Of a stretch of DNA of 64,000 nt, positions 17,940 to 32,386 are shown piece by piece. The translations under genes and the position numbers were made by a program. Source of the DNA: Duganella sp. 1411. GTDB lineage: Bacteria; Pseudomonadota; Gammaproteobacteria; Burkholderiales; Burkholderiaceae_D. Within the stretch, counting starts at the first letter, position 1. Every line of letters starts with the position of its first letter. The notes beneath the pieces were generated by a model. That model was not told the DNA's origin. It saw nothing but the letters and a program-made list of their open reading frames with translations, and ran no database searches. The stretch lies in assembly GCF_017833525.1 (NCBI RefSeq), contig NZ_JAFICD010000001.1, positions 1-64,000 on the forward strand, written 5' to 3'.

Positions 17940-18045
17940 GTTGTCTCCGGTTTTTATAGGTGTGTACTGCCGTCCCATGCTGTGCCAGCGGCGGCCCGCC
18001 GTCTAATGACTTTTTTCACATGGTTGATATTCCAATCTGTATCCC

Positions 18046-18067
18046 GACTACATATATATTTGTAGTC
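18046..18067. promoter_or_regulatory. Candidate operator in the arabinanase/amylase divergent promoter region
   Basis: Perfect 7-bp inverted repeat GACTACA-N8-TGTAGTC in the 247-bp divergent intergenic region. The two-fold symmetry suggests a dimeric regulator (LacI or similar type) of the polysaccharide-degrading genes. No regulator gene is adjacent. Confidence 0.45.
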
Positions 18068-18125
18068 GTCTTACAGTATCAAGCCGCGTAAGAATAAAAA
18101 AGTTCAAATTCCAGTTGATGTTTAC

Positions 18126-18140
18126 TGTAGTTCTGCTACA
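18126..18140. promoter_or_regulatory. Second candidate operator upstream of alpha-amylase
   Basis: Inverted repeat TGTAG-TTCTG-CTACA about 50 bp before the amylase start. It uses the same TGTAG/CTACA half-sites as the operator at 18046-18067 but with a 5-bp spacer. The shared half-site supports one regulator acting at both. Confidence 0.45.
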
Positions 18141-18186
18141 TTTTGCATGGGAGACAGCATTTCCCTAAACATAACGATAAGGACAC

Positions 18187-20064
18187 ATGATGATCAATTC
18201 GACACAACGCAGTCTGATGAAATCCCTTTGCGCGGCAGGTTTGTTGAGCGCCCTGATGGCCGTGCCCGCGCATGCCGCGCTGAACGCGCCCGATACCTCG
18301 GTACAGATGTTCCGCTGGAAGTGGAACGACATCGCCAAGGAATGCACCAACTGGCTAGGTCCGCAGGGGTATGGCGCGGTGCAGGTGTCGCCGCCGACGG
18401 CGGCCGCCAGCCTTGGCACCTGGTGGGATGTCTACCAGCCGGTCAACTTCAATTCGCTCAAGAGTAATATGGGTACCGAGGCGGAGTTCCAGGCCATGGT
18501 CAACACCTGCCACGCGGCCAAGGTGCGCATCTACGCGGACGTGGTGGTGAACCATCTGGCGGCGGGCGCCGGCACCGCCACCGACGGTTCGACATGGAAT
18601 TCGACCTCGCTGACGTATCCCTTCTTCAGCGGCAGCGATTTTCATCCGGCGTGCGACATCGCCAGCGGCGACTACGGCTCGCCGGGTAACCGCAACAATG
18701 TGATGTTCTGCCGCCTGAGCGGCCTGCCGGACCTGAAGACCGAGGGCGCGTACGTGCAAGGCCAGGTGAAGACCTATCTGAACAAGTTGGTGGCGATGGG
18801 CGTGGACGGTCTGCGCTTCGACGCGGCCAAGCATATGCAGCCGTCCGATATCCAGGCCATCATGAGCGGCGTGACGCAGACCACCACGTCCGGCGAGCCG
18901 CTGTGGGTCACGCAGGAGGTCATCCCGGACAGCAATGTGGTCCGATCGAGCTACTTCCCGAGCGGTACGCTGAACGAGTTCCAGTACACGTACGCGATCA
19001 AGGCCGTCTTCCGCAACGAGAATGGCGCCAGCCTGTCGCAGATCCGCACCATCATGGGCACGCCGGGCAACTGGGGCGGCACCTGGGGCTTTGTGCCGAG
19101 CGAGAAGGCGACGGTCTTCGTCAACAACTGGGATACGGAGCGCAATGGCAGCTCGCTGGTGGCCAGTAATTACGTCTCCGGCGGCACCAACGACACGCAA
19201 GGCACCAAGCGCTACGACCTGGCCAATATCTTCATGCTGGCGTGGCCATACGGGGCGGCGCAGCTGCATTCGGGCTTCCGCTTCACCAGCTACGATCAGG
19301 GGCCGCCGAGCGCCAGCCCGTTCGACGCCAACGGCGCGCCGCTGATCAACCAGCAGTGGGACTTCATCCACCGCTGGAGCGACATCTCGAACATGGTCGC
19401 CTTCCGCTCGGTGACGTCGGGCCAGGGCGTCGACAACTTCACCAACGGCAGCGGCAACCAGATCGCCTTTGGCCGTGGCGCCAAAGGCTATGTCGCCATC
19501 AATAACGACAGCGCGGCGTGGAACGCGTCGCTGCAGACGCAGCTGCCCGCCGGGACTTACTGCAACGTCGTGCACGGGCTGCTGAACGCCGCCGGTACCG
19601 CCTGCACCAGCGACAGCGTGACCGTCGGCACCAATGGCGTGATCAGCGTGAGCATTCCCGGCAATGGCGGTTCGGTCGTGCCGGCGGTGGCGCTGCACAT
19701 CAATCAAAAGGTGGGCGGTGGCGGTGGCGGCGGCACGTGCACCACGGTGCCGGTGACCTTCCGCGTGGCGAATGCGAACACGGTGGTCGGGCAGAACGTC
19801 TACGTGGTCGGCAACCGCGCGGAGTTGGGCAATTGGGTGCAGGGCGCCAGCAACCAGCTGACCATCGAAGGCAGCGGCGCCAACGTGCCGTGGTCGCGCA
19901 CCTTCCAGCTGCCGCCGGCCACGGCGATCCAGTACAAGTTCATGAAGTACGGCGTGAGCACCGTGTGGGAGAGTAACCAGTCCACCGCCAGCGGCAACCG
20001 CGAGGCGACCACGCCGGCGTGCGGCGGTTCGCTGACCCTGGACGCGGGCAGCTTCAAGTTCTAA
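18187..20064 (+). CDS. Secreted alpha-amylase, GH13 with C-terminal CBM20
   Basis: A 625-residue exported starch-degrading enzyme with signal peptide to about residue 31 (AVPAHA). The GH13 motifs are clear: DVVVNHL (region I), GLRFDAAKHM with nucleophile Asp212, TQEVI with acid/base Glu244, and FVNNWDTE with Asp316. These fit the GH13_32-type bacterial/actinobacterial amylases. A Gly-rich linker (about residue 513-520) leads to a CBM20 starch-binding domain (VTFRVANANT..GQNVYVVG...LGNW, and W residues of the raw-starch sites). It hydrolyses internal alpha-1,4 bonds. Expression is probably regulated together with the divergent arabinanase through the TGTAG/CTACA repeats. ATG at 18190 is an equally possible start. 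Confidence 0.95.
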   Translation: MMINSTQRSLMKSLCAAGLLSALMAVPAHAALNAPDTSVQMFRWKWNDIAKECTNWLGPQGYGAVQVSPPTAAASLGTWWDVYQPVNFNSLKSNMGTEAEFQAMVNTCHAAKVRIYADVVVNHLAAGAGTATDGSTWNSTSLTYPFFSGSDFHPACDIASGDYGSPGNRNNVMFCRLSGLPDLKTEGAYVQGQVKTYLNKLVAMGVDGLRFDAAKHMQPSDIQAIMSGVTQTTTSGEPLWVTQEVIPDSNVVRSSYFPSGTLNEFQYTYAIKAVFRNENGASLSQIRTIMGTPGNWGGTWGFVPSEKATVFVNNWDTERNGSSLVASNYVSGGTNDTQGTKRYDLANIFMLAWPYGAAQLHSGFRFTSYDQGPPSASPFDANGAPLINQQWDFIHRWSDISNMVAFRSVTSGQGVDNFTNGSGNQIAFGRGAKGYVAINNDSAAWNASLQTQLPAGTYCNVVHGLLNAAGTACTSDSVTVGTNGVISVSIPGNGGSVVPAVALHINQKVGGGGGGGTCTTVPVTFRVANANTVVGQNVYVVGNRAELGNWVQGASNQLTIEGSGANVPWSRTFQLPPATAIQYKFMKYGVSTVWESNQSTASGNREATTPACGGSLTLDAGSFKF

Positions 20065-20068
20065 GCGC

Positions 20069-20398
20069 TTAGTGCACGCTGGCTGGAACCGCTTTTTCCT
20101 GCTGTACCAGGACGAACGGGCTGACGACGACCGCCCACAGGTCGGCGTTGGCTTCCAGCCAGGCCTGCGCCTGCTCGTCGCTGACCCGGGCGAGCAGGCC
20201 GGCGTTCATCCACTGGCTGATGTTGGCCTTGTCGTCGTGCGAGATGCGCACGGCGACATCGACCAGATCGAGCGAGTTGGCGATCCACACCACGTTGCCG
20301 GCGGCGAAATGCTTGAGCAGTTCGGTCCACGGCAGGCGCGCGGTTTCGCGGTTGACTTTGAGGCGCAGTTCGGTGTCGTTCTCAGGTTTGGTTTGCAT
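20069..20398 (-). CDS. DUF2288 family protein
   Basis: A 109-residue soluble protein with the DUF2288 pattern: ELRLKVNRETARLPWTELLKHFA.G.V..I...LDLVDVA and a following acidic helix around the pattern D.KA.I..W...G...R. The function of the family is unknown. It converges with the alpha-amylase gene and follows the RES/Xre pair by 3 bp on the same strand, so it may be read through from that operon. Confidence 0.8.
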   Translation of the reverse strand: MQTKPENDTELRLKVNRETARLPWTELLKHFAAGNVVWIANSLDLVDVAVRISHDDKANISQWMNAGLLARVSDEQAQAWLEANADLWAVVVSPFVLVQQEKAVPASVH

Positions 20399-20401
20399 AA
20401 T

Positions 20402-21091
20402 CTAGATAATCTCGATGGTCGGTTCGGGGCTGCCTTGCCACGTCAGCCGATAGGCCGCGCCTTTGCGCACGTTGCCCACCAGCGCGGGACGGAAGCAGGC
20501 CAGGTTGGTGCCGCCCGGGCGCCGCACGCTCGGGTAGATGATGCCCAGCGAGCCGCCGTCGAGCAGGCGTTCGGCCAGTATCTGCGAGTCGATATAGCTG
20601 TCCGGCGACAGGCAGCTGTCGTAGCGCGGCTGGCCGCGCAGATCGTGGAAGGTGGCGGTGAAGTCGGCCAGCATGCATTGATACTGCACGCTGTCGTCGA
20701 AGCGGTTGATCTCGGCGTATTCCACCGCCTTGTGGAAGCTCACTTCGGCCAGCGCGGTCTCGGCGTCGAAGGCGCAGTACCACGCGCCACGGCGGCTGTC
20801 GTTAAAGCGGCTGCCTTGCGGATGGGCGTAGGTGAAGGCGGCGTTGACGATGCGGAAGTTCGGCACGCCGAACACCAGTTCGTCGACGTTGATGCCGGCC
20901 GAGCCGCCGTTCTGCGTGCGCAGGCGCGCGTTGGTGGCGTTGTCAAGGTCGAACAGGTCGCGCAGCATGTCGTCGCTGTCGGCCAGCGGCGACAGCACGG
21001 AATCCTCCACGTCGGCGAACCGGGAAGGCAGCAAACGGCAAGTGTCGAACTGGCGCAGCGTGGTAAGGGGTGGAATCAGGCTGACCGGCAC
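20402..21091 (-). CDS. RES-domain toxin
   Basis: A 229-residue RES-domain protein, the toxin half of RES-Xre (MbcTA-like) type II systems. Characterised members degrade NAD+ (phosphorolysis or hydrolysis). The residues naming the domain are recognisable: Arg in GSRFND, Glu in TALAEVSFHKA, and the Ser in the GGSLGI.YPSVR region. It starts with GTG immediately after the antitoxin TAA (TAAGTG, no gap), so translation is coupled to the antitoxin and kept low. Confidence 0.88.
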   Translation of the reverse strand: MPVSLIPPLTTLRQFDTCRLLPSRFADVEDSVLSPLADSDDMLRDLFDLDNATNARLRTQNGGSAGINVDELVFGVPNFRIVNAAFTYAHPQGSRFNDSRRGAWYCAFDAETALAEVSFHKAVEYAEINRFDDSVQYQCMLADFTATFHDLRGQPRYDSCLSPDSYIDSQILAERLLDGGSLGIIYPSVRRPGGTNLACFRPALVGNVRKGAAYRLTWQGSPEPTIEII

Positions 21092-21529
21092 TTACAGTCC
21101 TCCGCGGCGCGCATCTAATAACTGACGCACGGTTTGCATCGCCAGCAGGCCGCCGCCCAGCATGTACGCCAGCGGCGTGCGGCCTTCAAAAATCTGGTTG
21201 TTGTTGGGCAGGTTGACCCATTCGTCGGCGAGTTTGTCGCCGTAGATGATGTGCAGCGCCTTGTAGATGCCCAGCAGGTAGGAGATGCGGGTGATGCAGT
21301 CCACCTCCAGCGTGCGTTCCGGGTTCTTTTTCCATTCGTATAAGGCGCTGCTCGATAGCCCGCCCAATAGCTGGCGGGCGTCCTCGTCGCGCACGTGCCA
21401 CGTGCCGACGAGCTTGAAAAAGCCTTTGAGGGCCGACTTGGACAACCGCTCGCGCTCGGCCTTGGCATTCAGGTCCACCAAGACGGTCGGCTCGAAGCGG
21501 CTGCGAGGGTAAGCATAGGTCAGATTCAT
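21092..21529 (-). CDS. Xre/MbcA/ParS-type antitoxin (DUF2384)
   Basis: A 145-residue antitoxin paired with the RES toxin downstream. The N-terminal half is a degenerate Xre-type helix-turn-helix (ALKGFFKLVGTW...EDARQLLGGLSSSALYEWKK). The C-terminal half is the toxin-binding domain with ISYLLGIYKALHIIYG, WVNLPNNNQIFEGRTPLAYML and GGLLAMQTVRQLLDARRGG, where the last residues normally plug the toxin's active site. Start 21529 is set by the GGAGG 7 bases upstream. A GGAGTA/TACTCC palindrome just upstream is a likely autoregulatory site. Confidence 0.88.
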   Translation of the reverse strand: MNLTYAYPRSRFEPTVLVDLNAKAERERLSKSALKGFFKLVGTWHVRDEDARQLLGGLSSSALYEWKKNPERTLEVDCITRISYLLGIYKALHIIYGDKLADEWVNLPNNNQIFEGRTPLAYMLGGGLLAMQTVRQLLDARRGGL

Positions 21530-21544
21530 AGATCCTCCGGTAAT

Positions 21545-21560
21545 GGAGTACTTATACTCC
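21545..21560. promoter_or_regulatory. Putative autoregulatory operator of the RES/Xre operon
   Basis: Perfect inverted repeat GGAGTA-CTTA-TACTCC, 15 bases upstream of the antitoxin start. Its position over the promoter fits repression by the antitoxin or toxin-antitoxin complex, as known for MbcTA-like pairs. Confidence 0.5.
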
Positions 21561-21884
21561 TTTTTCGGATGAATAGCAATCGGGGAGTGAATCGCGGGCC
21601 GCTCCCATCCGAGCGCGTTCGACCCGGACATCCTTACCAATCCGTAATGTATGCACGAAAGAAAACTATATTTTCAATACTAGACACGTAGCGATATAAG
21701 ATATGAAATTAACGGAATAAGCGGAATTATATTTGATGGTGTTGCAGCAATTTACAAGCGATACACTATGATGCAAAAAACAAGAGGGGGTGTGAGAATT
21801 TGAGAGAATTGCGATAAGTTCAGCTCGATAGTATGCCCTTCGGCGGGTCAGCGGACGCGCCGCGACGCCGACAGGGAGGAAAAA
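21561..21884. other. Intergenic region with promoter of the bacteriocin cluster
   Basis: About 320 bp, AT-rich in its middle, between the divergent toxin-antitoxin operon and the bacteriocin gene. A TATGAT at 21767-21772 could be a -10 element, with TTGCAG at 21742-21747 a poorly spaced -35 (19 bp). No other gene is seen. Confidence 0.35.
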
Positions 21885-22685
21885 TTGCGAGATTTGAATC
21901 TGGAAGAATTGGAGTTGATTGTGGGTACCGGTGATACCACGGGGATTGTTTCCATCCCCGTCACCGGCCATGCGCCGACCCCGCCATCCCCTCCACCGAT
22001 CACGATTCCACCGTGGGGGCCGCCGCCAGCGGTCCCTGAACCGCCGCCGCCACCACCACCGGAGCAGTGCGAAACCGCCCAGGCGGCACAGGATCGTGTC
22101 GACCAGAACAAGATCAAGACCGACGAAGGCTATACCAATCACGGTGTGCAGCCCACCAGCAAATCGGGCCTGACGATTGGCAATGGAATCGACCTGCAAT
22201 CGAAGGACGCCACATGGCTGGCCAACGCCAATATTTCAGATGCCTCGCAAAAGGTGCTGGCGCCGTTTGCCGGCGCCGCTCCGGCGGATGTGCCCGGCTT
22301 GCTAAGCAAGTACGGCTCGCCCGTGGTGCCGGACGCCGATCTGGCGCTGATGTACAACAAGGCGTACTCCGAGATCTATCAGCATGTCACCGCCTCCTAT
22401 AACGCGGCCTCCACCGCCTCCGGATTCGGCATTCCATTCACCCAGCTGCCCGCGGCGGCGCAGACGGCCATCATGGACCTGGGGTATCAGACGCCCAACC
22501 TGGCCAAGTATCCGAACTTCTGGAGCGATATCACCAGCGGCCAGTGGGATGCGGCGATCAACGAGTTGCGGAACTGGAGCGGTCCCGGCAACACCTCGCC
22601 CCGTAAATCGGAATTGGCGGATCTGCTGCAACAGGCCGTGAACGGGGGCTTGCTGCCCGGCGCGGCTTCCGGCAAATGCAACTAA
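21885..22685 (+). CDS. Bacteriocin-like muramidase with double-glycine-type leader and Pro-rich linker
   Basis: A 266-residue probable secreted lysozyme-type bacteriocin. Residues 1-16 (MRDLNLEELELIVGTG) match class II/microcin leaders such as that of colicin V (Leu4, Leu6, Glu8, Leu9, Val before a Gly pair), with GTG in place of GG. Residues 25-59 are an extreme proline-rich linker (PTPPSPPP, GPPP, PPPPPPP). From about residue 75 a T4-lysozyme/pesticin-like domain follows: DEG (Glu81, equivalent of T4 Glu11), LTIGNGIDL (Thr97, equivalent of T4 Thr26), then LPAAAQTAIMDLGYQ and WSDI.SGQWDAAINEL. An Asp matching T4 Asp20 is not obvious. The start is a TTG at 21885 with AGGGAGGA 5 bases upstream; no ATG fits. 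It would cut target peptidoglycan after export by the C39 transporter in the same cluster. Confidence 0.82.
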   Translation: MRDLNLEELELIVGTGDTTGIVSIPVTGHAPTPPSPPPITIPPWGPPPAVPEPPPPPPPEQCETAQAAQDRVDQNKIKTDEGYTNHGVQPTSKSGLTIGNGIDLQSKDATWLANANISDASQKVLAPFAGAAPADVPGLLSKYGSPVVPDADLALMYNKAYSEIYQHVTASYNAASTASGFGIPFTQLPAAAQTAIMDLGYQTPNLAKYPNFWSDITSGQWDAAINELRNWSGPGNTSPRKSELADLLQQAVNGGLLPGAASGKCN

Positions 22686-22697
22686 AGGAAAATCCAA

Positions 22698-23348
22698 ATG
22701 AAAAAAGTTAGTTTTGCCAGCCTGGCCACGGCCGCACTGATCGTGGCGTCCGCTCCCGCGACCGCCCAGACGGCCCCGGCGACGGAACCGGTAACCCAGG
22801 CCACCTACGTGCGTGACTGGACGGTCGACGGCACACGGGACCACCTGCTGTCGGCCGCCCAGCAGTTCTTCGGCCACGATAGCGCTTTTTATATTTCGCT
22901 GCCCCGCGAGGAAGCCAACAGCGAGCTGGTCGGCACACAGTTCGCCTATGCCTTCCACGGCATCCCGGAACCGGAAATCGATCTGGAAAGCGGGCATAAG
23001 CTGTTTGTCGGCGCCGATCCGGAATCGATCCGGGAAAAGGCGCTGGTGCTGACCGACGCCGATCGCTCAACCGTGCGCGCGCTGGCCATTTTGCATCGCA
23101 GTTGCGGCGGCAAGAAGCGCATGGATCCGCAAACCAGGAAAGCGACCACCTGCCCACGCGCGACCACGCTGACCTTTTTCGTGCACGACGGCGAGCGGCT
23201 GGAAGCGGCCGAACGCAAGGAGGTGACGAAATGGGTGCGTGCCGATGCGCGCCGCCACAACGAGAAGGTGAAAAAGCAGGCGCAGATCACCGACAGCAAC
23301 CTGGTCCAGGCGATCCACGTCGAAATCAGAAAAGTTCACAATCAATAA
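22698..23348 (+). CDS. Periplasmic protein, candidate immunity to the muramidase
   Basis: A 216-residue protein with a cleavable signal peptide (ATAALIVASAPATAQ). The mature part is charged, with a SCGGKKRMDP region and several Lys/Arg-rich helices near the C terminus. I recognise no family. It begins 12 bp after the bacteriocin gene with AAAGGAAAA as ribosome site, and its predicted periplasmic location is where a self-protecting inhibitor of a lysozyme must act (pesticin immunity Pim is also periplasmic). The immunity role is inferred from position and export only. Confidence 0.6.
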   Translation: MKKVSFASLATAALIVASAPATAQTAPATEPVTQATYVRDWTVDGTRDHLLSAAQQFFGHDSAFYISLPREEANSELVGTQFAYAFHGIPEPEIDLESGHKLFVGADPESIREKALVLTDADRSTVRALAILHRSCGGKKRMDPQTRKATTCPRATTLTFFVHDGERLEAAERKEVTKWVRADARRHNEKVKKQAQITDSNLVQAIHVEIRKVHNQ

Positions 23349-23368
23349 ATACCTCAAAAGGTTGATGC

Positions 23369-24100
23369 ATGCACATAGTTAATTCGCTGTTCTCGAAAGA
23401 ATACGATTTCGCAGCATCGACCGCTCCGCGCCTGGAGCTGATGATCGCCACGCTGCCGCGCGCCGGAAGCACCTACTTCTGTATCGAATTGTGGAAGACG
23501 GGGCTGCTGGGCGCGCCGCTGGAATACGCGAATTTCGGACTGGCCAAGGTCATGCGCGAGCGGTTGCCGGGCATCGAAGACCCGGTGGAATACTGGCGGC
23601 AGGTGCAGCGCTTGCGCACCGGCGGCAACGGCGTCTTCAGCTACAAGATGTTCATGAATATGTACCTGGACCATGGACGCCAATCGCCCGCCATGCTCAA
23701 GCGCTTCGCGCCGGACAAGGTGGTCTATCTGACGCGGCGCGACAAGGTGGCGCAGGCCATTTCCTATTCCAGGGCGATCAAGAGCAAGTCCTGGTTCGCC
23801 GGCACGGCGACCAAGGTCGCGCCCGAGTACGATCCGGCGCATGTGCGCATGAGCGAGCGCAGCATCCATCGCCAGGAGCGCTTCTGGGAGAAGGTGTTTC
23901 AATTAACGGAGACCACGGTGCTGCCCGTCGTCTATGAAGATTTCCTGGAGAACCCGGACGCGGTCAAGGCCAGGATCTGCGAATGGACCGGGCAGGCCAT
24001 CGATCCGGGAAAATACCTGGATATTCCCAATCTGAGCCGGCAGGCCGACGAAACCAGCGCCGCCTGGACCCGCCGCTATCTGCAGGACCGCCAGCCATGA
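23369..24100 (+). CDS. Stf0-like sulfotransferase
   Basis: A 243-residue cytoplasmic sulfotransferase that would move sulfate from PAPS to a hydroxyl acceptor. The 5'-phosphosulfate loop LPRAGSTYF (residues 29-37) and the 3'-phosphate-binding stretch VVYLTRRDKVAQAISYSRA are clear, as is VVYEDFLENP. Together they place it in the Stf0 family. The acceptor is unknown. Its place between a secreted bacteriocin and a C39 exporter, plus an APS kinase later in the cluster, suggests that it modifies the bacteriocin, as the tyrosine sulfotransferase RaxST does in the Xanthomonas raxX system. Its stop overlaps the next gene's start by 4 bases (ATGA). Confidence 0.85.
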   Translation: MHIVNSLFSKEYDFAASTAPRLELMIATLPRAGSTYFCIELWKTGLLGAPLEYANFGLAKVMRERLPGIEDPVEYWRQVQRLRTGGNGVFSYKMFMNMYLDHGRQSPAMLKRFAPDKVVYLTRRDKVAQAISYSRAIKSKSWFAGTATKVAPEYDPAHVRMSERSIHRQERFWEKVFQLTETTVLPVVYEDFLENPDAVKARICEWTGQAIDPGKYLDIPNLSRQADETSAAWTRRYLQDRQP

Positions 24101-24906
24101 CGCAGGCGGCGGCGCTGACGGTCAAGCAATTAAAGCCGATGACCTTGCCGGACGTGGCGCAGCTCTGCGCCACCAGCCGGGCGGCCACGCGGGCGATGGA
24201 GTCGGCCTACGCCGGCGCGTCGCCATCGCAGGACGCAGCCATCCTGCAATGGCTGGAAACGGACCCGGCCAACACGGGTAATTACGGTTGCCTCGACAGT
24301 CAAAGCCTGGTGCACGAACTGTCGGCCCATGCCATGCTGCGGCGCTGGCCCAGAAGCTACGACCGCCGCGGCATCGTCGAGCGGGAACTGTTTGCGCGGG
24401 CGCCGGCCGGGACGGCGCAGGCCTTGTTGGTCGACGGCTTGGACGGCTTCAAGGCCCTGCTATGCCGGCTCAGCGCCGACGCCGGCGGCGCCGCCGCCTT
24501 CCGCCGGCACCCGGTCAACAATGGCGTCGATGTGGCCGGCGCCATGGTGGTCTACCCGGATTACCGCGTGATCGATGAACAGCTGTCCCGCATCCTCGCC
24601 TTCCTGCGCACGCATGCGGACCGCCATCCCGCCTTCGCCGCCATCGTCGCCTATGCCAGCCTGTGCAATCTGCATCCGCTGCCGGATGGAAACGGGCGGC
24701 TGGCGCGCATGCTGTACAACCTGGTCATCCGCCGCGCGTTCCCGAACGCGTTCTACCTGCCGATCTACGAGCTCTCGGCGCTGTCGCAGATGGGGCTGAT
24801 CATCCGCCTGCGGCAGGCCGACTACCACGGTAAATGGCTGCCGCTGATCGCGATGCTGTCGGGCGCGGTGTGCCGATTCGCCGCGCAACAGCCCCGCCCG
24901 CGCTGA
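24097..24906 (+). CDS. Fic-domain protein (nucleotidyl/AMP transferase)
   Basis: A 269-residue cytoplasmic Fic protein. The active-site motif HPLPDGNGRLAR (residues 193-204) is intact, including catalytic His, the phosphate-binding GNGR and the last Arg, and an acidic Asp in the usual position. Fic enzymes transfer AMP or other phosphate-containing groups to Ser/Thr/Tyr of proteins. A clear (S/T)xxxE(G/N) inhibitory helix is not seen; SLVHELS at about 70 is the nearest match. ATG 24097 overlaps the sulfotransferase stop and gives the expected protein; a longer frame from 23983 would overlap too much. Within this cluster the target may be the bacteriocin or a cluster enzyme (inference). Confidence 0.85.
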   Translation: MTQAAALTVKQLKPMTLPDVAQLCATSRAATRAMESAYAGASPSQDAAILQWLETDPANTGNYGCLDSQSLVHELSAHAMLRRWPRSYDRRGIVERELFARAPAGTAQALLVDGLDGFKALLCRLSADAGGAAAFRRHPVNNGVDVAGAMVVYPDYRVIDEQLSRILAFLRTHADRHPAFAAIVAYASLCNLHPLPDGNGRLARMLYNLVIRRAFPNAFYLPIYELSALSQMGLIIRLRQADYHGKWLPLIAMLSGAVCRFAAQQPRPR

Positions 24907-24909
24907 ATC

Positions 24910-25665
24910 ATGGACAAAATAGACACCACGCTGAACACCGCTCGCGACGAACTGTTCCGCATCCAGGCGGCGCAGGCCGCGCAGCGTTTCCAGCAGCAAT
25001 TCCTGGCAAGGCAGACGTTTCGCCGCGTGGACCTGCTCATCATCGCCGCGCTGGCGCTGATCGGCGTCCTGGTGGCGATGGCCTGCCTGGTCCGCGTGCC
25101 GCGGCACCATGCCCTCCACGGCGTGATCCGTCCCGCCGCCGAGCCTTTGCTGGTCAGCCTGAGCGCGGCCGGCACGGCCAATTCGCGCCTGGTCCTGCGC
25201 GTGGTGGAGGGGCAGCAGGTGGCGCAGGGCGCCTTGCTGGGCGCCGTGGTCACGGATCGCGACGGCGAGGTGGCGACCGCCCGCGCGCCGGTGGCGGGCA
25301 CCGTCGCCCGCATCGACTGGGCCGAGGGCCACGCCAGCGCGGCGGCCGCGCGCATCACGCTCGAGCCGCTGTCGCCCGATTACGTGGCGCGCTACGAGCT
25401 GCCGCCCGAGCTCGGCCGTTTCGTCAGCCTCCATCAGAAGCTGCCGTTGGCGGCCGAGGCCGACGCGCGCGCGCTGTCCGGTGAAGTCGTCCGTGAATGG
25501 ACGGCGCCGGGACACGGCGGCCAGCCGGAGGTGCTCAACATCGCCGTCAAGATCCTGCCGGACGGCCAGCCCCTGCATCTGAGAAACGGCGCCGGGATCA
25601 CCGCCGTCGTCGATGAAACCAGGCTGCCGCTGATACGCATGCTGATGCCGGGCGCGGCCAGATAA
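24910..25665 (+). CDS. HlyD-like membrane-fusion protein of the bacteriocin exporter
   Basis: A 251-residue protein with a cytoplasmic N terminus, one TM helix (about residues 43-62, LLIIAALALIGVLVAMACLV) and a periplasmic part. The latter has lipoyl-like half-motifs (LRVVEGQQVAQGALLG, RAPVAGTVARIDWAEG) and beta-barrel segments, as in HlyD/CvaA/RaxA adaptors. It is short and lacks the long coiled coil of typical HlyD proteins, so contact to an outer-membrane TolC may be made differently. It starts 3 bp after the Fic gene and ends 12 bp before the exporter. Confidence 0.78.
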   Translation: MDKIDTTLNTARDELFRIQAAQAAQRFQQQFLARQTFRRVDLLIIAALALIGVLVAMACLVRVPRHHALHGVIRPAAEPLLVSLSAAGTANSRLVLRVVEGQQVAQGALLGAVVTDRDGEVATARAPVAGTVARIDWAEGHASAAAARITLEPLSPDYVARYELPPELGRFVSLHQKLPLAAEADARALSGEVVREWTAPGHGGQPEVLNIAVKILPDGQPLHLRNGAGITAVVDETRLPLIRMLMPGAAR

Positions 25666-25677
25666 CGGGACAAGCCG

Positions 25678-27816
25678 ATGAATTATTCGTTTTGGAAGCG
25701 CGCCGGACCGCCGGTGATCCGCCAGCATGACCAGTCGGAGTGCGCGTTGGCGTGCGTCGCCATGGTGGGGCAGCATCTGGGCCTGTCGTTGTCGCTCGAC
25801 AGCCTGCGCCTGCGCTTTCCCGCCTCGGTGTTCGGTACCAAGCTGTCGGCGGTGGTCAACCTGTGCGCGGAAAGCGGCATGATGGCGCGCGCCGTCAAGC
25901 TGGAGGTCGACGAGTTGCCGCAACTGCGCACGCCGTGCATCCTGCATTGGAAGATGGGGCATTATGTGGTGCTGGTCGGGACTTCGGCGGACGGGGCGTG
26001 GGTGCACGATCCGGCGCTCGGGCGCAGCTTCGTCCCGTTGGCCGGGCTGCAAACGTTGTTTACCGGAATCGCGCTGGAATTGAGCGTGCGATCCAACTTC
26101 ACGGTGCACAAGGAGGCCGACGGCGGCGCCAGGATCAACTGGATCAAGTTCGCCACCGCGGTGCAAGGTTTCCATGGCACGCTGGGACGCTCGTTGGCGC
26201 TGGCGGTGCTGCTGGAGTTGCTGTCGCTGGCGCAACCCATCGCCAGCCAGTTCATCATCGACCAGTCGGTCACCGGATCGGACCTGTCGCTCATCGCGGC
26301 GCTGGCCGGCGCGCTGGCGCTGCTCAGCGTCAGCGCCCTGGTGCTGGGGGCCGTGCGCACCTGGATCATCAGCGTGATCCAGGGACGGCTGTTCCTGTCG
26401 TCGACGTCAAACGTGTTCGCCCACCTGCTGCAGCTGCCCTCGACGTTTTTCGAGCGGCGCCGCCTGGGCGATGTGATATCGCGCTTCAACACCATCGGCA
26501 GCATCCAGAAAATACTGTCCACGCGCCTGGTCGAAGTGGTCCTGGACGGCACGGTCAGCATCCTCACGCTGGCGATATTGTTTGCCTACAGCGGCGTGTT
26601 GGGCGGGATCGTGCTGGTCAGCCTGCTGCTGCGGATCGGGGTCAAGCTGGCGTCCTATCCGGGCCTGGCGGAACTGAGCGCCAAAACGCTGATGATCAAC
26701 GCCAAACAGCAGAACCGGGTGGTGGAAAGCATCCGCCTGGTGCACACCATCCGCACCGCCAACGCCCAGTCGCGGATGCTGTCGCGCTACCTCGACCTCG
26801 GCGTCAGCGGCCTGCGCGCCGACATGGCCGTGCAGCGGTACGAGATATGGGTCAATTTCGCCTCGTCGATGATTTCCTCGCTGGAAAAAATCACCGTCGT
26901 CGCGGTCGGCGCGCTGCTCGTCGGCCGCCACGTGTTCACCGTCGGCGCGCTGGTGTCCACCAGTTATCTGGCGCTGCAGTTTTCCGGCCGCTCCCACAAT
27001 CTGATGGAATACCTGTTTCAGTTGCGCATGCTCAAATTGCAGCAGGGACGGCTGGCCGACATCGTGCAGGCCAAGCCCGAGGCGCATTTCACCAGCGGCT
27101 ACGTCGGCCATCCCGGCCATCACGACCTGCGGTTGAAGAATGTTCATTTCCGCTATAACCCCAACGACCGCTGGATCCTCAAAAACATCTCGATGGAGAT
27201 CCGCGACGGCGAATTCGTGGCCATTGTCGGGCCGTCGGGCGCGGGCAAGTCGACCCTGATCAATCTGCTCACCGGGGTGCTGTCGCCCACCAGCGGCGAC
27301 ATCGCGCTGGGCGGCGTCGACCTCGACAAACTGGGCAAGTCGCGTTTTCGCGAGTTGCTGGGCGTGGCGTTGCAGGATGCCGGTGTGTTTTCCGGTACCA
27401 TCGCGGACAATATCTCCATGTTCGACGAGACCGCGGCCTACGAGGACATCGAAGCGGCCGCCAAACTGGCCTGCGTGCATGCCGATATCCTGGCGACGCC
27501 GATGGGATACAACACCCAGCTGGGCAGCATCGAATCCCACCTGTCCGCCGGCCAGCGCCAGAAAATCATCCTGGCGCGGGCGCTGTACCGCCGTCCGAGA
27601 ATTCTGATATTGGACGAGGCCACCTGCCATCTGGACGTGCAGGCCGAGAGCGAGGTTCTGAGCAACATCGCCGCGTTGAAGATGATCCGCATCATGGTGA
27701 CGCATCGTCACGGCGCCGCGCTGTTCGCCGACAGGATTTACGACGTGGCTCGCGGCGCCTTCGTTGCGGGCGCGCCATCGCCGCGCAGCGCCGCCGAATT
27801 AATGACCGTCAAATGA
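25678..27816 (+). CDS. C39 peptidase-containing ABC exporter (PCAT)
   Basis: A 712-residue bacteriocin exporter of the CvaB/RaxB type. It has an N-terminal C39 cysteine protease domain with intact catalytic residues: Gln16, Cys22 (QSECALACVAM), His96 (GHYVVLVG) and Asp112 (VHDPALG). Six TM segments follow (about 160-430), then an ABC ATPase with Walker A GPSGAGKST (about 517-525), signature LSAGQRQ (about 622-628) and Walker B ILILDEAT. It should cut the bacteriocin leader at its Gly-type site and push the cargo through the inner membrane with the adaptor encoded upstream. All motifs needed for activity are present. Confidence 0.95.
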   Translation: MNYSFWKRAGPPVIRQHDQSECALACVAMVGQHLGLSLSLDSLRLRFPASVFGTKLSAVVNLCAESGMMARAVKLEVDELPQLRTPCILHWKMGHYVVLVGTSADGAWVHDPALGRSFVPLAGLQTLFTGIALELSVRSNFTVHKEADGGARINWIKFATAVQGFHGTLGRSLALAVLLELLSLAQPIASQFIIDQSVTGSDLSLIAALAGALALLSVSALVLGAVRTWIISVIQGRLFLSSTSNVFAHLLQLPSTFFERRRLGDVISRFNTIGSIQKILSTRLVEVVLDGTVSILTLAILFAYSGVLGGIVLVSLLLRIGVKLASYPGLAELSAKTLMINAKQQNRVVESIRLVHTIRTANAQSRMLSRYLDLGVSGLRADMAVQRYEIWVNFASSMISSLEKITVVAVGALLVGRHVFTVGALVSTSYLALQFSGRSHNLMEYLFQLRMLKLQQGRLADIVQAKPEAHFTSGYVGHPGHHDLRLKNVHFRYNPNDRWILKNISMEIRDGEFVAIVGPSGAGKSTLINLLTGVLSPTSGDIALGGVDLDKLGKSRFRELLGVALQDAGVFSGTIADNISMFDETAAYEDIEAAAKLACVHADILATPMGYNTQLGSIESHLSAGQRQKIILARALYRRPRILILDEATCHLDVQAESEVLSNIAALKMIRIMVTHRHGAALFADRIYDVARGAFVAGAPSPRSAAELMTVK

Positions 27817-27828
27817 AAGGATGAGACG

Positions 27829-28401
27829 ATGAAAGCACGGAACATGGGAACGGTGGTCTGGCTGACCGGCCTCTCGGGCGCGGGTAAGTCGACGGTGGCG
27901 GCGTCGCTGGAGCGGTATTTGACCGGTCTGGGTCTGCGCGCGTACGTGTTGGACGGCGACAAGTTGCGCGCCGGCCTGTGTTCGGATCTGGGCTTTTCGG
28001 ATAGCGATCGCCAGGAGAACATACGTCGGGCCGGCGAGGCGGCGCGGATGTTGGTCGACGCCGGCGTGATCGTGATCGCCGCGCTGATTTCGCCGTTTTC
28101 CAGCGACCGCGCCGGCGTCCGCCAACGCTTCGGCGCGGGCGAGTTCCATGAAGTGTATTGCGCCTGTCCGCTCGCGGTGTGCGAGCGGCGTGACGTCAAA
28201 GGACTGTACCGGGCGGCGCGCGCCGGCCGCATTCCGCTGTTTACCGGCATCACGTCGCCTTACGAGGCGCCGACCGACGCGGATCTGGTGCTGCACACCG
28301 CCGTGGAGACGGCGGAGGAATCGACCGCCCGCCTGATCGCGTTCCTGCGGGCGCGCGGCGCGCTGCCGATGGCCATCGACGCTGCCGCGCTTGCGGGCTG
28401 A
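27829..28401 (+). CDS. cysC: Adenylylsulfate (APS) kinase
   Basis: A 190-residue APS kinase: ATP + APS gives ADP + PAPS, the sulfate donor of sulfotransferases. The P-loop GLSGAGKST (residues 14-22), LDGDKLRAGLCSDLGFS, the RQENIRRAGE stretch and ISPF are characteristic of CysC, although the usual DGDNxR is DGDKLR. It is a stand-alone kinase with no sulfurylase next to it, and it lies 12 bp after the exporter. It therefore looks dedicated to feeding the sulfotransferase of the same cluster rather than to cysteine synthesis, much like raxP/raxQ for RaxST. Confidence 0.92.
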   Translation: MKARNMGTVVWLTGLSGAGKSTVAASLERYLTGLGLRAYVLDGDKLRAGLCSDLGFSDSDRQENIRRAGEAARMLVDAGVIVIAALISPFSSDRAGVRQRFGAGEFHEVYCACPLAVCERRDVKGLYRAARAGRIPLFTGITSPYEAPTDADLVLHTAVETAEESTARLIAFLRARGALPMAIDAAALAG

Positions 28402-28437
28402 CGGCGGCACCTCACTCTTTCATACGGGGCCATTCTG

Positions 28438-29325
28438 ATGGAATACCAACAGCGACTGAACGGCAAGGTGCGCGCGCTGCACGCGTCCGGCAAAAACTAT
28501 ACGCAGATCGTGATCGCGATCGCGGTCACCTACGGCTACTCGCTGCCGATTGCGCATCGGATCGTCGACGCGGCGCTATGCCGACCCGAAAATGACGGGC
28601 TGTTGCGCCACCGCGCCGCCGAAGAGGGCGCCGATTTTCCGGATATCGCGGTCGGCGCCGACAATGCGCTCGATCTTGGCGATACCCGCGCCACGGTCGT
28701 CTTCGAGCAACTGGCGCCGCGCATCGTCCTGGTGGACGGCTTCATGAGCCCCGAAGAATGCGAGTTGATGTGTGAAATCGCCGAGCCGCGCATGCGGACT
28801 GCGCGGGTGATGTCCAAAACGACCTTGTCGGGCAACCTGCTGACGTCGGTGCGGGACGCGAACACCGCCTTTGTCCACGAGGAATCTCATCCGCTGGTCG
28901 GCACGATCGAGCGGCGCATCGCGACCATGACCGGCTGGGCCGGCGCGCGCGGCGAGACCTTACAAGTCCAGCGCTACCGCCAGGACGGGAAATACGTTCC
29001 GCATTACGACTTCTTCAGCAATAAATCCGTGAGCGAGACCCATGCCTTGTCGGTTGCCGGCCAGCGGCTGGCGACCTTGATCGTGTATTTACGCTCGCCG
29101 CGTTCGGGCGGGGCCACGTATATGGCCAATCTCGGCATCAAGATCGCGCCCCGGCGCGGCGCGGCGCTGTTCTTCAGCTACCCCGACGCGAGCGAGCGTA
29201 GTGGCACTTTGCACGGAGGCGATCCGGTGCGCGAAGGCGAGAAATGGATACTCACCAAATGGTTCCGCCAACGCCACCGGGCGTTGACGACGTCCGACGC
29301 GCACCCGGTCGCGGAGGAGGCTTAA
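28438..29325 (+). CDS. Prolyl-4-hydroxylase-like 2-oxoglutarate/Fe(II) oxygenase
   Basis: A 295-residue oxygenase of the P4Hc family. The iron ligands His189 and Asp191 (PHYDFF) and distal His259 (TLHGGDPV), and the 2-oxoglutarate-binding Lys269 (GEKWILTKWF), are all present. The substrate-binding loop and RSGGATYM match bacterial prolyl hydroxylases. The first 80 residues form an extra helical domain. It is the last gene of the bacteriocin cluster, 36 bp after cysC. The bacteriocin has a linker of more than twenty prolines, which makes an obvious candidate substrate (inference). Its stop codon overlaps that of convergent recJ. Confidence 0.9.
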   Translation: MEYQQRLNGKVRALHASGKNYTQIVIAIAVTYGYSLPIAHRIVDAALCRPENDGLLRHRAAEEGADFPDIAVGADNALDLGDTRATVVFEQLAPRIVLVDGFMSPEECELMCEIAEPRMRTARVMSKTTLSGNLLTSVRDANTAFVHEESHPLVGTIERRIATMTGWAGARGETLQVQRYRQDGKYVPHYDFFSNKSVSETHALSVAGQRLATLIVYLRSPRSGGATYMANLGIKIAPRRGAALFFSYPDASERSGTLHGGDPVREGEKWILTKWFRQRHRALTTSDAHPVAEEA

Positions 29326-31016
29326 ACCGCCTCGGCATGCTCCACCAGCAATTGCACTTTTGTGACGCCGTTGTATTCGTTGGCGTCGAGGCGGAAGGCG
29401 ACCTTGGCGCGCTCGCCCAGCGCGTCGACGTGGCCGAACCAGATGGCGTCGTAGCGCGAACCGTTCTTTTCCAGCAGCAGTTTGAGGTGGCGCTCTTTTA
29501 ATATGCGCTGGCTGACGACGCGGAATTCGTCGCAGAACACCGGCGGGGCGAAGCCCTGTCCCCACACCTGGCCGGCCATCAGGTCGATGAAGGCGGTGGT
29601 GTAGTAGGCATCCTCCAGCGGGCCGTCGGTTTCGACGATGCGCTCGAGCTGCTGCTTGCTCAGCCACGCCTGGCCGACTTCCTCGAAGGCGGCGGCGAAG
29701 GCATCGAAGGCGTCGGCGCGCAAGGTCAGCCCGGCCGCCATCGCGTGGCCGCCGAATTTGTCGATCAGGCTGGGGGCCTTCTTGTAGACCAGGTCGAGCG
29801 CGTCGCGCAGGTGGAAGCCCGGGATGGAGCGACCCGACCCCTTGATCCAGCCGTCGGCGCCGGGCGCGAAGGTGATCGTCGGCCGGAAGAACTTTTCCTT
29901 GAGGCGCGAGGCGACGATGCCGATCACGCCCTGGTGCCACGATTCGTCGAACACGCAGATGGTGCTACTGTTGGCCGGCTCGTAGGCGTCCAGGTGCAGC
30001 AGTGCGGTGTCCTGCATCTCGGCCTCGATCTCGCGCCGTTTCAGGTTGATCTCGTTGAGCCGCTGCGCCAGTTCCCAGGCGCGGCCCTCGTCGTCGGTGA
30101 TCAGGCATTCGATCCCGAGCGACATGTCCTCCAGCCGCCCGGCGGCGTTCAGGCGCGGTCCGAGCGCGAAACCGAGGTCGAACGGGCTGGCGGTGCGCGG
30201 CTCGCGCCCGGCGACGCGGAACAGCGCGGCCACGCCGGCGTGCATGCGGCCGGCGCGCATGCGCTTGAGCCCCTGCGCCACCAGGATGCGGTTGTTGGGG
30301 TCGAGCCGCACCACGTCGGCGACGGTGCCCAGCGCCACCAGGTCGAGCAGGTTGTCCAGCTTCGGCTGCGGTTTGTCCTCGTACGCGCCGCGCTTGCGCA
30401 GTTCGGCGCGCAACGCCAGCAGCACATAGAACACCACGCCCACGCCGGCGATATGCTTGCTCGGGAAGCCGCATTCGGGCTGGTTCGGGTTGACGATCAC
30501 GCGCGCGGCCGGCAGCGTGTCGGCCGGCAGGTGGTGGTCGGTGACCACCACCTCGATGCCGCGCCGGTTGGCTTCGGCCACGCCGTCGATGCTGGCGATG
30601 CCGTTGTCGACGGTGATGATGATGTCCGGCCGCTTTTCGCGCGCCGTCAGTTCGACGATCTCCGGCGTCAGGCCGTAGCCGTATTCGAAGCGGTTGGGGA
30701 CGATGAAGTCGATATTGGCGCCCATCGCGCGCAGGCCGCGCAGCGCCACGGCGCAGGCGGTGGCGCCGTCGCAGTCGTAGTCGGCGACGATCACCATGCG
30801 CTTGCCGGCGGCGATGGCGTCGGCCAGGAAGACGGCGGCGGCGTCGATGTGCAGCAGGCCCGATGGCGGGATCATCGCCGCCAGCTCGCTCGATAAATCC
30901 TTGATGTCGGTCAGGCCGCGCGCCGCGTACAGGCGCGCCAGCACCGGGTGGATGCCTCCCTGGCGCAGCATTTCGGATTCGCGGTAGGGGTAGGGGCGGG
31001 TGGCGATACGGGTCAT
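29322..31016 (-). CDS. recJ: Single-stranded-DNA-specific exonuclease RecJ
   Basis: A 564-residue 5'-3' exonuclease acting in RecF-pathway recombination and mismatch repair. DHH-superfamily motifs are intact: VADYDCDGATA, DNGIAS, VTDHHLPAD, and later the DHHA1 motif GGHAMAAG, with the OB-like C-terminal domain. The open frame continues upstream to 31919, but the true start is ATG 31016 (MTRIATRPYPYRESE), which overlaps the preceding gene's stop by 4 bases (ATGA) and gives the normal length of the family. Confidence 0.95.
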   Translation of the reverse strand: MTRIATRPYPYRESEMLRQGGIHPVLARLYAARGLTDIKDLSSELAAMIPPSGLLHIDAAAVFLADAIAAGKRMVIVADYDCDGATACAVALRGLRAMGANIDFIVPNRFEYGYGLTPEIVELTAREKRPDIIITVDNGIASIDGVAEANRRGIEVVVTDHHLPADTLPAARVIVNPNQPECGFPSKHIAGVGVVFYVLLALRAELRKRGAYEDKPQPKLDNLLDLVALGTVADVVRLDPNNRILVAQGLKRMRAGRMHAGVAALFRVAGREPRTASPFDLGFALGPRLNAAGRLEDMSLGIECLITDDEGRAWELAQRLNEINLKRREIEAEMQDTALLHLDAYEPANSSTICVFDESWHQGVIGIVASRLKEKFFRPTITFAPGADGWIKGSGRSIPGFHLRDALDLVYKKAPSLIDKFGGHAMAAGLTLRADAFDAFAAAFEEVGQAWLSKQQLERIVETDGPLEDAYYTTAFIDLMAGQVWGQGFAPPVFCDEFRVVSQRILKERHLKLLLEKNGSRYDAIWFGHVDALGERAKVAFRLDANEYNGVTKVQLLVEHAEAV

Positions 31017-32086
31017 GTGCGGACGGTGCTTAATAAAATGTTCAGGTTTTGCTTGCGCCAGAATTTGCGCTGCGCCAGTTTGGAGCCCGATACCGTCATC
31101 CACTCGTGGCGGTGGCTCATCACCAAGGTCACGCGGCCGACGCGGCCCTCCTTGAGCGCGGCCAGCAGCGGCGCGAACCACTCCAGTTCCAGGCGCTGCA
31201 GGCGTGCCAGCCAGTCGGCCCAGTCGCCGGTTTGCGCCGGCGGAATCAGTTCCGCCAGCACGACGGTGGCGTTGTTGGCCGGAGCGGCGAGCAAGCGCGC
31301 GACATCGGGCGCGCGCCGCTCGGGCGCGGCCAGCGCCTGCATCCAGGACGGCGCGCCATCGGCGGCGACCCACAGCGGCACCGCCGCCGGCGGGGTGGCC
31401 AGCGCGGAGCCGCCCCACAGCCAGAACGAATTGACCTGTTGCAGACCACGCGCGTGGCGCGCCTCGTTGACCGGGTGTTCGTGCCACAGCATCTGGATTT
31501 CGTTTTGCAGCTTGCGGTAGTCGCGCGCGCGCTCGCCCTCCGGCACCCAGTCGCTGATGTATTGGGTGGTGGCGGCGTCCGGCGACGCGGTGCGCAGGCC
31601 GGACCAGTCGTCGGCGCGGACGAACCACAGTCCCGGCGCCGCGTACAGCAGCGGCTTGCCCAGCTCCTCGAAGTAGGGGCGGGCGATGTCGTACAGGCTG
31701 CGCGATTCGGCCTCGGTCAATTGCAGCGCGCGCGGGTCCGACAGCAGCGAATGCGTACGCGAGATCTGGATGTTCGCCGGCTGGACGATGAACCAGTGGC
31801 CGGCGGCCGCCGCGGCGGCCAGTTCGGGGCCGCAACCGCGCATGGCGGCGGTGGCGACCGGCGCGCCGGTGTCGGGATGGTCGGGCGCCGGCGCCAGGCC
31901 CAGCGCGTGGCTCAGCCACGCCTCATGGGGCAGCACGCGGCTGTTGTTGTCGAATTTGGTGGTGCGCGCATCGCTGTGGCGCGATAGCAGCGCCGCCAGG
32001 GCGGGTGTTTGCAGGGCGCGGATCAGATCGCGCGCCATTTCCGGCGGGGGAAGCGCGTACGGCAGAACAAGGGTGATTTCAGTCAT
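31013..32086 (-). CDS. RpfE-like conserved protein upstream of recJ
   Basis: A 357-residue soluble protein starting MTEITLVLPYALPPPEMARDL, with FDNNSRVLPHEAWLSHALGL, the DPRALQLTEAE stretch, PEG..ARD.RKLQNEIQMLWHEHPVNEAR and NSFWLWGGG-like SFWLWGGSA motifs. These match the protein conserved next to recJ in betaproteobacteria and annotated as RpfE-like or phosphoglycerate-mutase-like; its biochemical role is not established. Alternative start at 32104 (MPYNLG). It is translationally coupled to recJ. Confidence 0.7.
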   Translation of the reverse strand: MTEITLVLPYALPPPEMARDLIRALQTPALAALLSRHSDARTTKFDNNSRVLPHEAWLSHALGLAPAPDHPDTGAPVATAAMRGCGPELAAAAAAGHWFIVQPANIQISRTHSLLSDPRALQLTEAESRSLYDIARPYFEELGKPLLYAAPGLWFVRADDWSGLRTASPDAATTQYISDWVPEGERARDYRKLQNEIQMLWHEHPVNEARHARGLQQVNSFWLWGGSALATPPAAVPLWVAADGAPSWMQALAAPERRAPDVARLLAAPANNATVVLAELIPPAQTGDWADWLARLQRLELEWFAPLLAALKEGRVGRVTLVMSHRHEWMTVSGSKLAQRKFWRKQNLNILLSTVRT

Positions 32087-32386
32087 GCCGAGATTGTAGG
32101 GCATTGCGGCGGAGGCCGAAAAAATCTTTCGATTTCAGGTGGACCGAAAGTTGTCAAGAAAAAAATACAACATTCCTAATGGATATTGTAAATAAAATTA
32201 GACTCATGGATAAAAATCAATTGTCTAAAATAAAATTGATATGTATTATCTGCAACTTCGATGATATGCGGGCATCACTTCACACCGTGATGGCCTCCCC
32301 CGAGTCGGCGCCACCAACCACCCAACCCGCGTGGATGGCCGCCCTCCAGACCCATAACACCAAAAAGATTCTGAAGGCTTAACGAC

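Follow-up and report, generated by a model that had tools for sequence, protein, structure and literature searches.

A probable export cluster for a leader-bearing muramidase in Duganella sp. 1411

The window analysed here comprises the first 64,000 nucleotides of contig NZ_JAFICD010000001.1 from Duganella sp. 1411 (assembly GCF_017833525.1), and its subject is a block of eight genes at 21885-29325 that is, judging from sequence, a real, unusual and probably functional export cluster for a muramidase. I propose that this enzyme would be an antibacterial product that leaves the cell through a peptidase C39-containing ATP-binding cassette transporter (PCAT), carrying a hydroxylated and probably sulfated Pro-rich stalk, and I put the chances of the whole mechanism at about even. 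The proposal is built on the gene content of the block, its motifs, the fold match of the muramidase, the insertion of the block into a site that is empty in near relatives, and an association in the genus between prolyl 4-hydroxylases (P4Hs) and Pro-rich leader peptides.

Results

All eight genes are complete open frames on the forward (+) strand, so the eight-gene cluster described in the initial annotation is confirmed. They run in the order muramidase, signal-peptide protein, Stf0 sulfotransferase, Fic protein, short HlyD-like adaptor, C39-ABC exporter (the PCAT), adenosine 5'-phosphosulfate (APS) kinase and P4H, with intergenic gaps of 12, 20, -4, 3, 12, 12 and 36 bp, the last being the largest. 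The stop of the Stf0 gene and the start of the Fic gene overlap as ATGA, which makes 24097 the most likely Fic start in place of the ATG at 23983 given in the open reading frame list. The muramidase gene begins with a TTG at 21885, preceded by GGGAGG. The family assignments made at the outset for the muramidase, Stf0, Fic, C39-ABC, APS kinase and 2-oxoglutarate (2OG) oxygenase all held, each exceeding its Pfam cut-off. There were no Rfam matches at gathering score in 18000-33000, and a promoter scan returned 0 sigma-70-like sites compared with 1.4 in shuffles.

The inserted block spans approximately 7.7 kb (21594-29330, edges placed to about 10 bp by blastn collinearity and reading of the junctions) and sits between recJ and an Xre/RES pair. 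In the three nearest relatives (G089, G673 and G674, with recJ 94-95% identical) the site is empty and the end of recJ lies only 16-26 bp from the Xre/RES/amylase region. Because recJ nearly abuts that region in these genomes, the stretch from about 21594 to 29330 can be read as a clean insert. Four other relatives carry 2.6-3.7 kb of different frames at the same spot, and the block is absent from the recJ-xre site in all seven relatives examined (of 73 other genus genomes). Searched as DNA against 74 genus genomes, the whole block appeared only in its own genome among the matches listed; some DNA match to it occurs in 73 of the 74, the best one elsewhere among those listed being 463 bp of the APS kinase gene. 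The insert boundaries, the tight spacing and the presence of one leader-bearing gene support reading the eight genes as one unit.

A mobile element was considered and rejected: none of the eight genes encodes a transposase, the window has no tRNA, and the repeat families listed (20 of 57 direct, 25 of 82 inverted) include none that flanks the block. Anti-phage defence was likewise set aside, as PADLOC profiles, run against the six block proteins other than PCAT and APS kinase, gave matches only for Fic, to SoFic and candidate PDC profiles, and for the 2OG protein, to a generic profile. The minus strand of 20402-21640 encodes a RES-domain toxin and Xre/MbcA/ParS antitoxin pair that lies close to recJ in each of the seven relatives examined, and the stretch between this pair and recJ is a variable slot whose frames differ by genome.

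The cargo gene (21885-22685) encodes 266 aa comprising a leader (aa 1-15, LRDLNLEELELIVGT; coding stretch 21885-21929), a Pro-rich stalk (aa 16-61; 21930-22067) and a Pfam match at aa 73-222 to Pesticin (PF16754; 59.6 bits, cut-off 25.8). E81, T97 and D103 are invariant when compared with three distant pesticin-domain proteins, and T97 and D103 align with pesticin T201 and D207; according to PDB titles, the pesticin variants E178A, T201A and D207A are inactive. A structure predicted from a six-sequence alignment has a mean predicted local distance difference test score (pLDDT) of 64.5, with about 78-90 by blocks for residues 101-200 and under 50 for residues 1-70. In a fold search, this model retrieved 11 pesticin chains as its only matches at E <= 0.001, with a TM-score of about 0.6 by query length. 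By sequence and model the cargo is a pesticin/T4-lysozyme-type muramidase that keeps both fold and catalytic residues and is predicted to hydrolyse peptidoglycan; the lysozyme domain first noted is supported by PF16754, the pesticin-like fold and the Glu, Thr and Asp residues alike.

The predicted PCAT cut falls after Thr15 (LRDLNLEELELIVGT/GD) and would leave a mature protein of 251 aa and 26.1 kDa. Numbered by the leader positions of class II microcins, the motif has E at -8, L at -7, I at -4 and G at -2, with Thr at -1. ELELIVGTG, which covers leader and mature start, is identical in 6/6 aligned proteins (the cargo and five database relatives, one of them a 98% copy), and the stalk varies. 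The double-glycine-type leader originally proposed is therefore retained as a motif that is present and invariant in relatives, but its final position is Thr and not G, A or S. Across 14001-37000 (23 kb), the muramidase gene was the only match to a leader plus ribosome site, and so no rival substrate peptide is seen there; nor did the leader-pattern scan turn up a second small precursor inside the block. Twenty control loci (about 337 kb) yielded six leader plus ribosome-site matches, none of them Pro-rich. The Pesticin profile matches 10 of 321 class genomes, the Duganella genome included, and the leader motif is absent in the pesticin-domain frames examined at the nine others (one being a split gene).

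The stalk contains 20 Pro among its 46 residues, along with 5 Thr, 2 Ser and 0 Tyr, and is the predicted target of modification, given the P4H association described below. As it has no Tyr, Tyr sulfation of the stalk was rejected and the candidate sulfate acceptors are the hydroxyls of Thr, Ser or hydroxyproline.

The PCAT (25678-27816) matches C39 (92.1 bits, cut-off 22), ABC_membrane (78.7, cut-off 28) and ABC_tran (103.9, cut-off 25). Its motifs (ECALAC, HYVV, DP, Walker A, LSAGQ, ILILDE) include the C39 Cys22, His and Asp, Walker A/B and LSAGQ, all present, and it aligns nearly full-length with ComA and with the solved bacteriocin transporter 4ry2 (PCAT1). With three domains and every motif in place, it is the complete C39-ABC exporter that the initial annotation took it for. 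Assignment to the NHLP/NHLM exporters (TIGR03796) was rejected, since the score of 403.9 bits is under half the equivalog cut-off of 853.3. I consider it quite probable that the cargo is exported by this PCAT. Upstream of it lies the short membrane-fusion (HlyD-like) adaptor (24910-25665), which stands on weaker ground than first claimed: a short frame is in place and scores 21.4 bits for DUF2118 (cut-off 20.5), a biotin/lipoyl-like family, but HlyD_3 reaches only 16.2 bits (cut-off 22.2). C39 peptidase matches occur at eight places in the Duganella genome, seemingly many, and five of the seven further C39 loci examined have at least one leader-type peptide.

Three of the remaining genes encode the putative sulfation and nucleotidylation functions. 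The Stf0-type sulfotransferase (23369-24100; 81.5 bits, cut-off 22) has a PRAGST loop for binding 3'-phosphoadenosine 5'-phosphosulfate (PAPS). The APS kinase (27829-28401; 204.4 bits, cut-off 21.1) has its P-loop and would supply PAPS; because the Duganella genome holds three further matches (four in total), the block copy looks like an extra and probably dedicated supply. Judged from Stf0 and this extra kinase, both members of the operon, the odds on sulfation of the cargo are evenly poised. The Fic protein (24097-24906; 36 bits, cut-off 24) has HxFx(D/E)GNGRxxR in the form HPLPDGNGRLAR, with Phe replaced by Leu, and no [ST]xxxE[GN] inhibitory motif. Its intact motif and operon membership make action on the cargo possible, if doubtful.

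The second protein (22698-23348) has a Sec-type signal, recognised by eye, and is likely a periplasmic immunity protein, a role suggested by its position after the muramidase and its predicted periplasmic destination. An alignment of nine relatives shows two Cys to be invariant. For this protein no Pfam family exceeded its cut-off and no PDB relative was found, and its structure model is poor (pLDDT 47). Among 195 family genomes it has one remote relative elsewhere (G139, another genus, 2.8e-10).

The last gene (28438-29325) encodes a P4H-like 2OG oxygenase with PHYD and LHGGDPVREGEK. It matches 2OG-FeII_Oxy_3 (57.4 bits, cut-off 27), contains the catalytic H-x-D, distal H and K, and is predicted to hydroxylate peptidyl-proline; the original call of a prolyl-hydroxylase-like oxygenase is thus sustained by domain, residues and homology to solved P4Hs. 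A search of 74 genus genomes (E <= 1e-20) returned 63 rows, of which 60 are paralogues of 30-36% identity. Close relatives (51-53%) occur in only two of the 73 other genomes (G649 and G660), and each has a leader peptide of 24-26% Pro no more than 3 kb away. Conversely, none of the 20 paralogue loci used as controls (20 of the 60 rows, loci of 14-17 kb) has a Pro-rich leader peptide, although six have one leader match each. Counting the window, P4H is associated with a Pro-rich leader peptide in 3/3 cases versus 0/20 (p 0.00056; p 0.0043 without the window), an association that is suggestive because the leader pattern was set only after the G649 and G660 peptides had been seen. That the P4H acts on the cargo stalk seems to me somewhat the better bet.

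The neighbours of these close P4H relatives differ. In G660 (L087, 8026-11468), the neighbours of the P4H relative are an HlyC acyltransferase, a leader peptide rich in Tyr and Pro, and a SelO-like protein (28.5 bits for PF02696, a family of protein AMPylators; cut-off 22.8); the SelO-like/HlyC pair may parallel the MceJ/MceI pair of siderophore microcins. In G649 (L086, 4899-8820), the P4H relative shares its locus with a metallo-beta-lactamase-fold protein, a further 2OG oxygenase that has DUF6817, and a leader peptide rich in Pro and Cys. The Duganella genome itself has another locus (L089, 5152-12436; contig C1, about 2.045-2.052 Mb) with a PCAT and two short Pro-rich leader peptides (MRDLYKNEVAVVSGA... 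and MRDLHEQEVAVISGA...). Also at this locus, by eye, are an adaptor-like gene and a 604 aa protein that has no Pfam match and resembles the SelO-like protein of G660.

The genes of the block are sporadically distributed. A 98% muramidase (P0001) and a 98% sulfotransferase (P0018) come from the same sources, with three contigs each and a longest contig of 5,975 bp, which makes it probable, as far as these two sequences indicate, that the block has a close copy. Muramidases of 62% identity lie on metagenome contigs of 10,506 bp (P0002) and 18,480 bp (P0004), the former seeming also to hold a relative of the second protein (P0017, on a contig of equal size). For sulfotransferases of 57-70% (P0019-P0022) the longest contigs measure only 1.5-4 kb and reveal little about linkage. 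Beyond the Duganella genome, the muramidase gave a single match in 245 family genomes, dismissed as noise (G195; 33% over the stalk region 17-86, with a stop inside), and the adaptor gave none in 240. For the sulfotransferase, four other genomes among 399 of the order (E <= 1e-8) and one among 369 of the class (G720; E <= 1e-15) have relatives of 27-31%. In the five sulfotransferase neighbourhoods of the four order genomes (L018-L022), the muramidase, second protein, Fic, adaptor, APS kinase and P4H were unmatched at 1e-3, and in one (L022) two ABC-transporter frames match the PCAT query with 134 and 115 bits.

A scan of genome contigs with the muramidase alignment gave 103 pattern matches and one confirmed locus, in Lysobacter penaei (L017, 6310-10270), where a pesticin-domain protein that by eye has a Sec-type signal lies about 6.6 kb from an ABC-transporter frame (140 bits) and the modifying genes are unmatched. 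Also close to this gene, by eye, are two thioredoxin/DsbG-like proteins and a chitinase-like lysozyme, which suggests a different, Sec-dependent muramidase cluster. Matches to the muramidase also occur in 33 plasmid and 16 phage records, none covering 80% of the query and those listed starting at residue 71 or later, and six plasmid records have sulfotransferase relatives of 24-28%.

Downstream of the block, 32387-36487 (+) encodes a 1366 aa protein of repeated 'GDxVWxDxNxNGxQDxGE' units (by eye), a large repetitive surface protein that is presumably SdrD B-domain-like.

Discussion

How might these eight genes work together? Each biochemical step that follows, cleavage and modification included, I infer from sequence. 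The leader would guide the precursor both to the enzymes that modify it and to the exporter. While the protein is still in the cytoplasm, ahead of export, P4H would convert Pro of the stalk to 4-hydroxyproline. The APS kinase would supply PAPS, with which Stf0 may sulfate Ser, Thr or the new hydroxyproline hydroxyl, and not a stalk Tyr. Fic may add AMP, or another nucleotide, to a hydroxyl, which is the least certain step. The PCAT, together with the short adaptor and a putative host TolC, would then cut the leader after Gly-Thr and secrete the 26 kDa product, the Sec-exported second protein would shield the producer's periplasm, and the secreted enzyme would likely serve as an antibacterial weapon. 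The earlier proposal that a modified large muramidase is exported by a PCAT is thus kept in its main lines by the gene unit, the PCAT motifs, the fold and the P4H association, but its sulfation and AMPylation steps are carried forward as predictions only.

Other explanations deserve consideration. The PCAT might export the muramidase unmodified while Stf0, APS kinase, Fic and P4H act elsewhere, for example on a cell-surface glycan or a metabolite. Sugars are the substrates of those Stf0 enzymes whose substrate is known, the block's Stf0 matches the NCBIfam trehalose 2-sulfotransferase model (61 bits, far below the cut-off of 400), and none of the sulfotransferase matches listed fits the contigs of two muramidase relatives. 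Yet the eight genes include no glycosyltransferase or other biosynthetic gene, only one of them bears a leader, and P4H relatives accompany Pro-rich leader peptides, so I regard unmodified export as unlikely, though worth keeping in mind. Alternatively, the leader could be a chance match or remain uncut, in which case the muramidase would leave by some other route, such as lysis, and the PCAT would export a small unrecognised peptide. The Thr at -1, the 26 kDa size of the cargo and the TTG start would all fit, but the motif is invariant in the six aligned proteins and lacking from the pesticin-domain frames at the nine other class genomes, and the surrounding 23 kb holds no other leader match; I give this explanation little credence.

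Two further alternatives concern the purpose of the product. As in the raxX-raxSTAB system, the gene kinds of which (PCAT, adaptor, sulfotransferase and PAPS supply) are the same (PMC6637879), a cargo Tyr could be sulfated and the product could be a signal or an adhesion factor, not a bacteriocin. This seems improbable: the stalk lacks Tyr, one relative has Phe and another Ser in place of Y83, which lies near the catalytic Glu, and the cargo is enzymatic, its catalytic residues being conserved. A housekeeping or developmental cell-wall enzyme, used for instance in remodelling during spreading, would agree with the solitary remote relative of the second protein in another genus, but the muramidase and adaptor are sporadic in family genomes and the site is empty in near relatives, which makes such a role hard to credit.

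Several observations nevertheless weigh against an exported muramidase with a modified stalk. C39 substrates seldom have Thr at -1. The stalks of relatives are Pro/Ser-rich and align poorly, and in the structure model the loop with the catalytic Glu (79-85) has a pLDDT under 50. The adaptor, as noted, is below the HlyD_3 cut-off. None of the 32 sulfotransferase matches, for which only the longest contig per cluster is given, fits the contigs of P0002 or P0004, and so sulfation may not be general; this is weak evidence either way, and the contigs could end nearby. The post hoc choice of leader pattern also counts here, as does the lack of any PCAT within 19 kb of the G649 and G660 P4H relatives, which means that the exporter of their peptides, if any, lies elsewhere. 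No P4H was found beside the PCAT and Pro-rich leader pair of L089, and the SelO-like protein of G660 scores 19.3 against an NCBIfam YdiU cut-off of 431. Other block genes are absent within 19 kb of the G139 relative of the second protein, and so solitary a relative does not look like an immunity gene. Finally, there is the comparison with PCAT-exported class II microcins (PMC10231218, PMC9746304). As proposed here, these carry a short leader at the N-terminus, which a C39-ABC exporter working with an adaptor removes as it exports them. The block's cargo differs in being 26 kDa instead of under 10 kDa, in being enzymatic and in having Thr at -1. PMC10231218 sets large type I cargo of over 50 kDa against leader-cut cargo of under 10 kDa, and the muramidase lies between the two size classes.

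If the proposed mechanism is true, leader-guided modification and PCAT export would extend from small peptides to a folded enzyme, a P4H from bacteria would gain a substrate of a defined kind, bacterial proteins would seem to be sulfated on residues other than tyrosine, and a compact tool to export and decorate proteins would be at hand. A bolder version, which I offer tentatively and think rather unlikely, is that the whole enzyme is handled like a ribosomally synthesised and post-translationally modified peptide (RiPP): P4H, Stf0 and Fic would turn the Pro-rich stalk into a sulfated, possibly nucleotidylated hydroxyproline rod that acts as a delivery arm through a rival's envelope, and the PCAT-exported enzyme would belong to a larger set of P4H-modified, leader-guided, Pro-rich products in the genus.

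In pesticin, the N-terminal part serves uptake. The cargo resembles pesticin (PDB 4aqn, 4epf) in its catalytic domain, its fold and its E/T/D residues, but its own N-terminus consists of the leader and Pro-rich stalk, with no Pfam family over cut-off there. The block's P4H resembles bacterial P4Hs (PDB 3itq, 5hv0; E 5.9e-31) in its H-x-D, distal H and K, but has 77 residues before the matched stretch compared with about 22, and sits with an exporter and a leader-bearing cargo. In the literature searched, mostly outside subscription journals, I found no system with a 26 kDa enzyme cargo together with P4H and Fic; the titles and abstract openings of the matches listed include no leader-bearing muramidase and no P4H- or Fic-modified microcin, and I found no literature tying an Stf0 sulfotransferase to a RiPP.

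The initial annotation knew of no described bacteriocin system with this combination of genes, and in this it overlooked raxX-raxSTAB of Xanthomonas, the nearest system so far described. As reported in PMC6637879, a PCAT, an adaptor and a sulfotransferase there export a sulfated leader peptide, RaxX, of 60 residues with the sulfate on Tyr-41, and a title in the reference list of that paper names raxP and raxQ as PAPS-making enzymes. Thus, the pairing of a PCAT with a sulfotransferase is not new. Likened by gene kinds, both systems have PAPS-making enzymes and cluster a leader-bearing cargo with a sulfotransferase, a membrane-fusion protein (a weak match in the block) and a peptidase-ABC exporter. 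The Duganella block differs in that its cargo is a 26 kDa enzyme (266 aa) with a stalk lacking Tyr, and in the addition of P4H, Fic and an APS kinase within the cluster.

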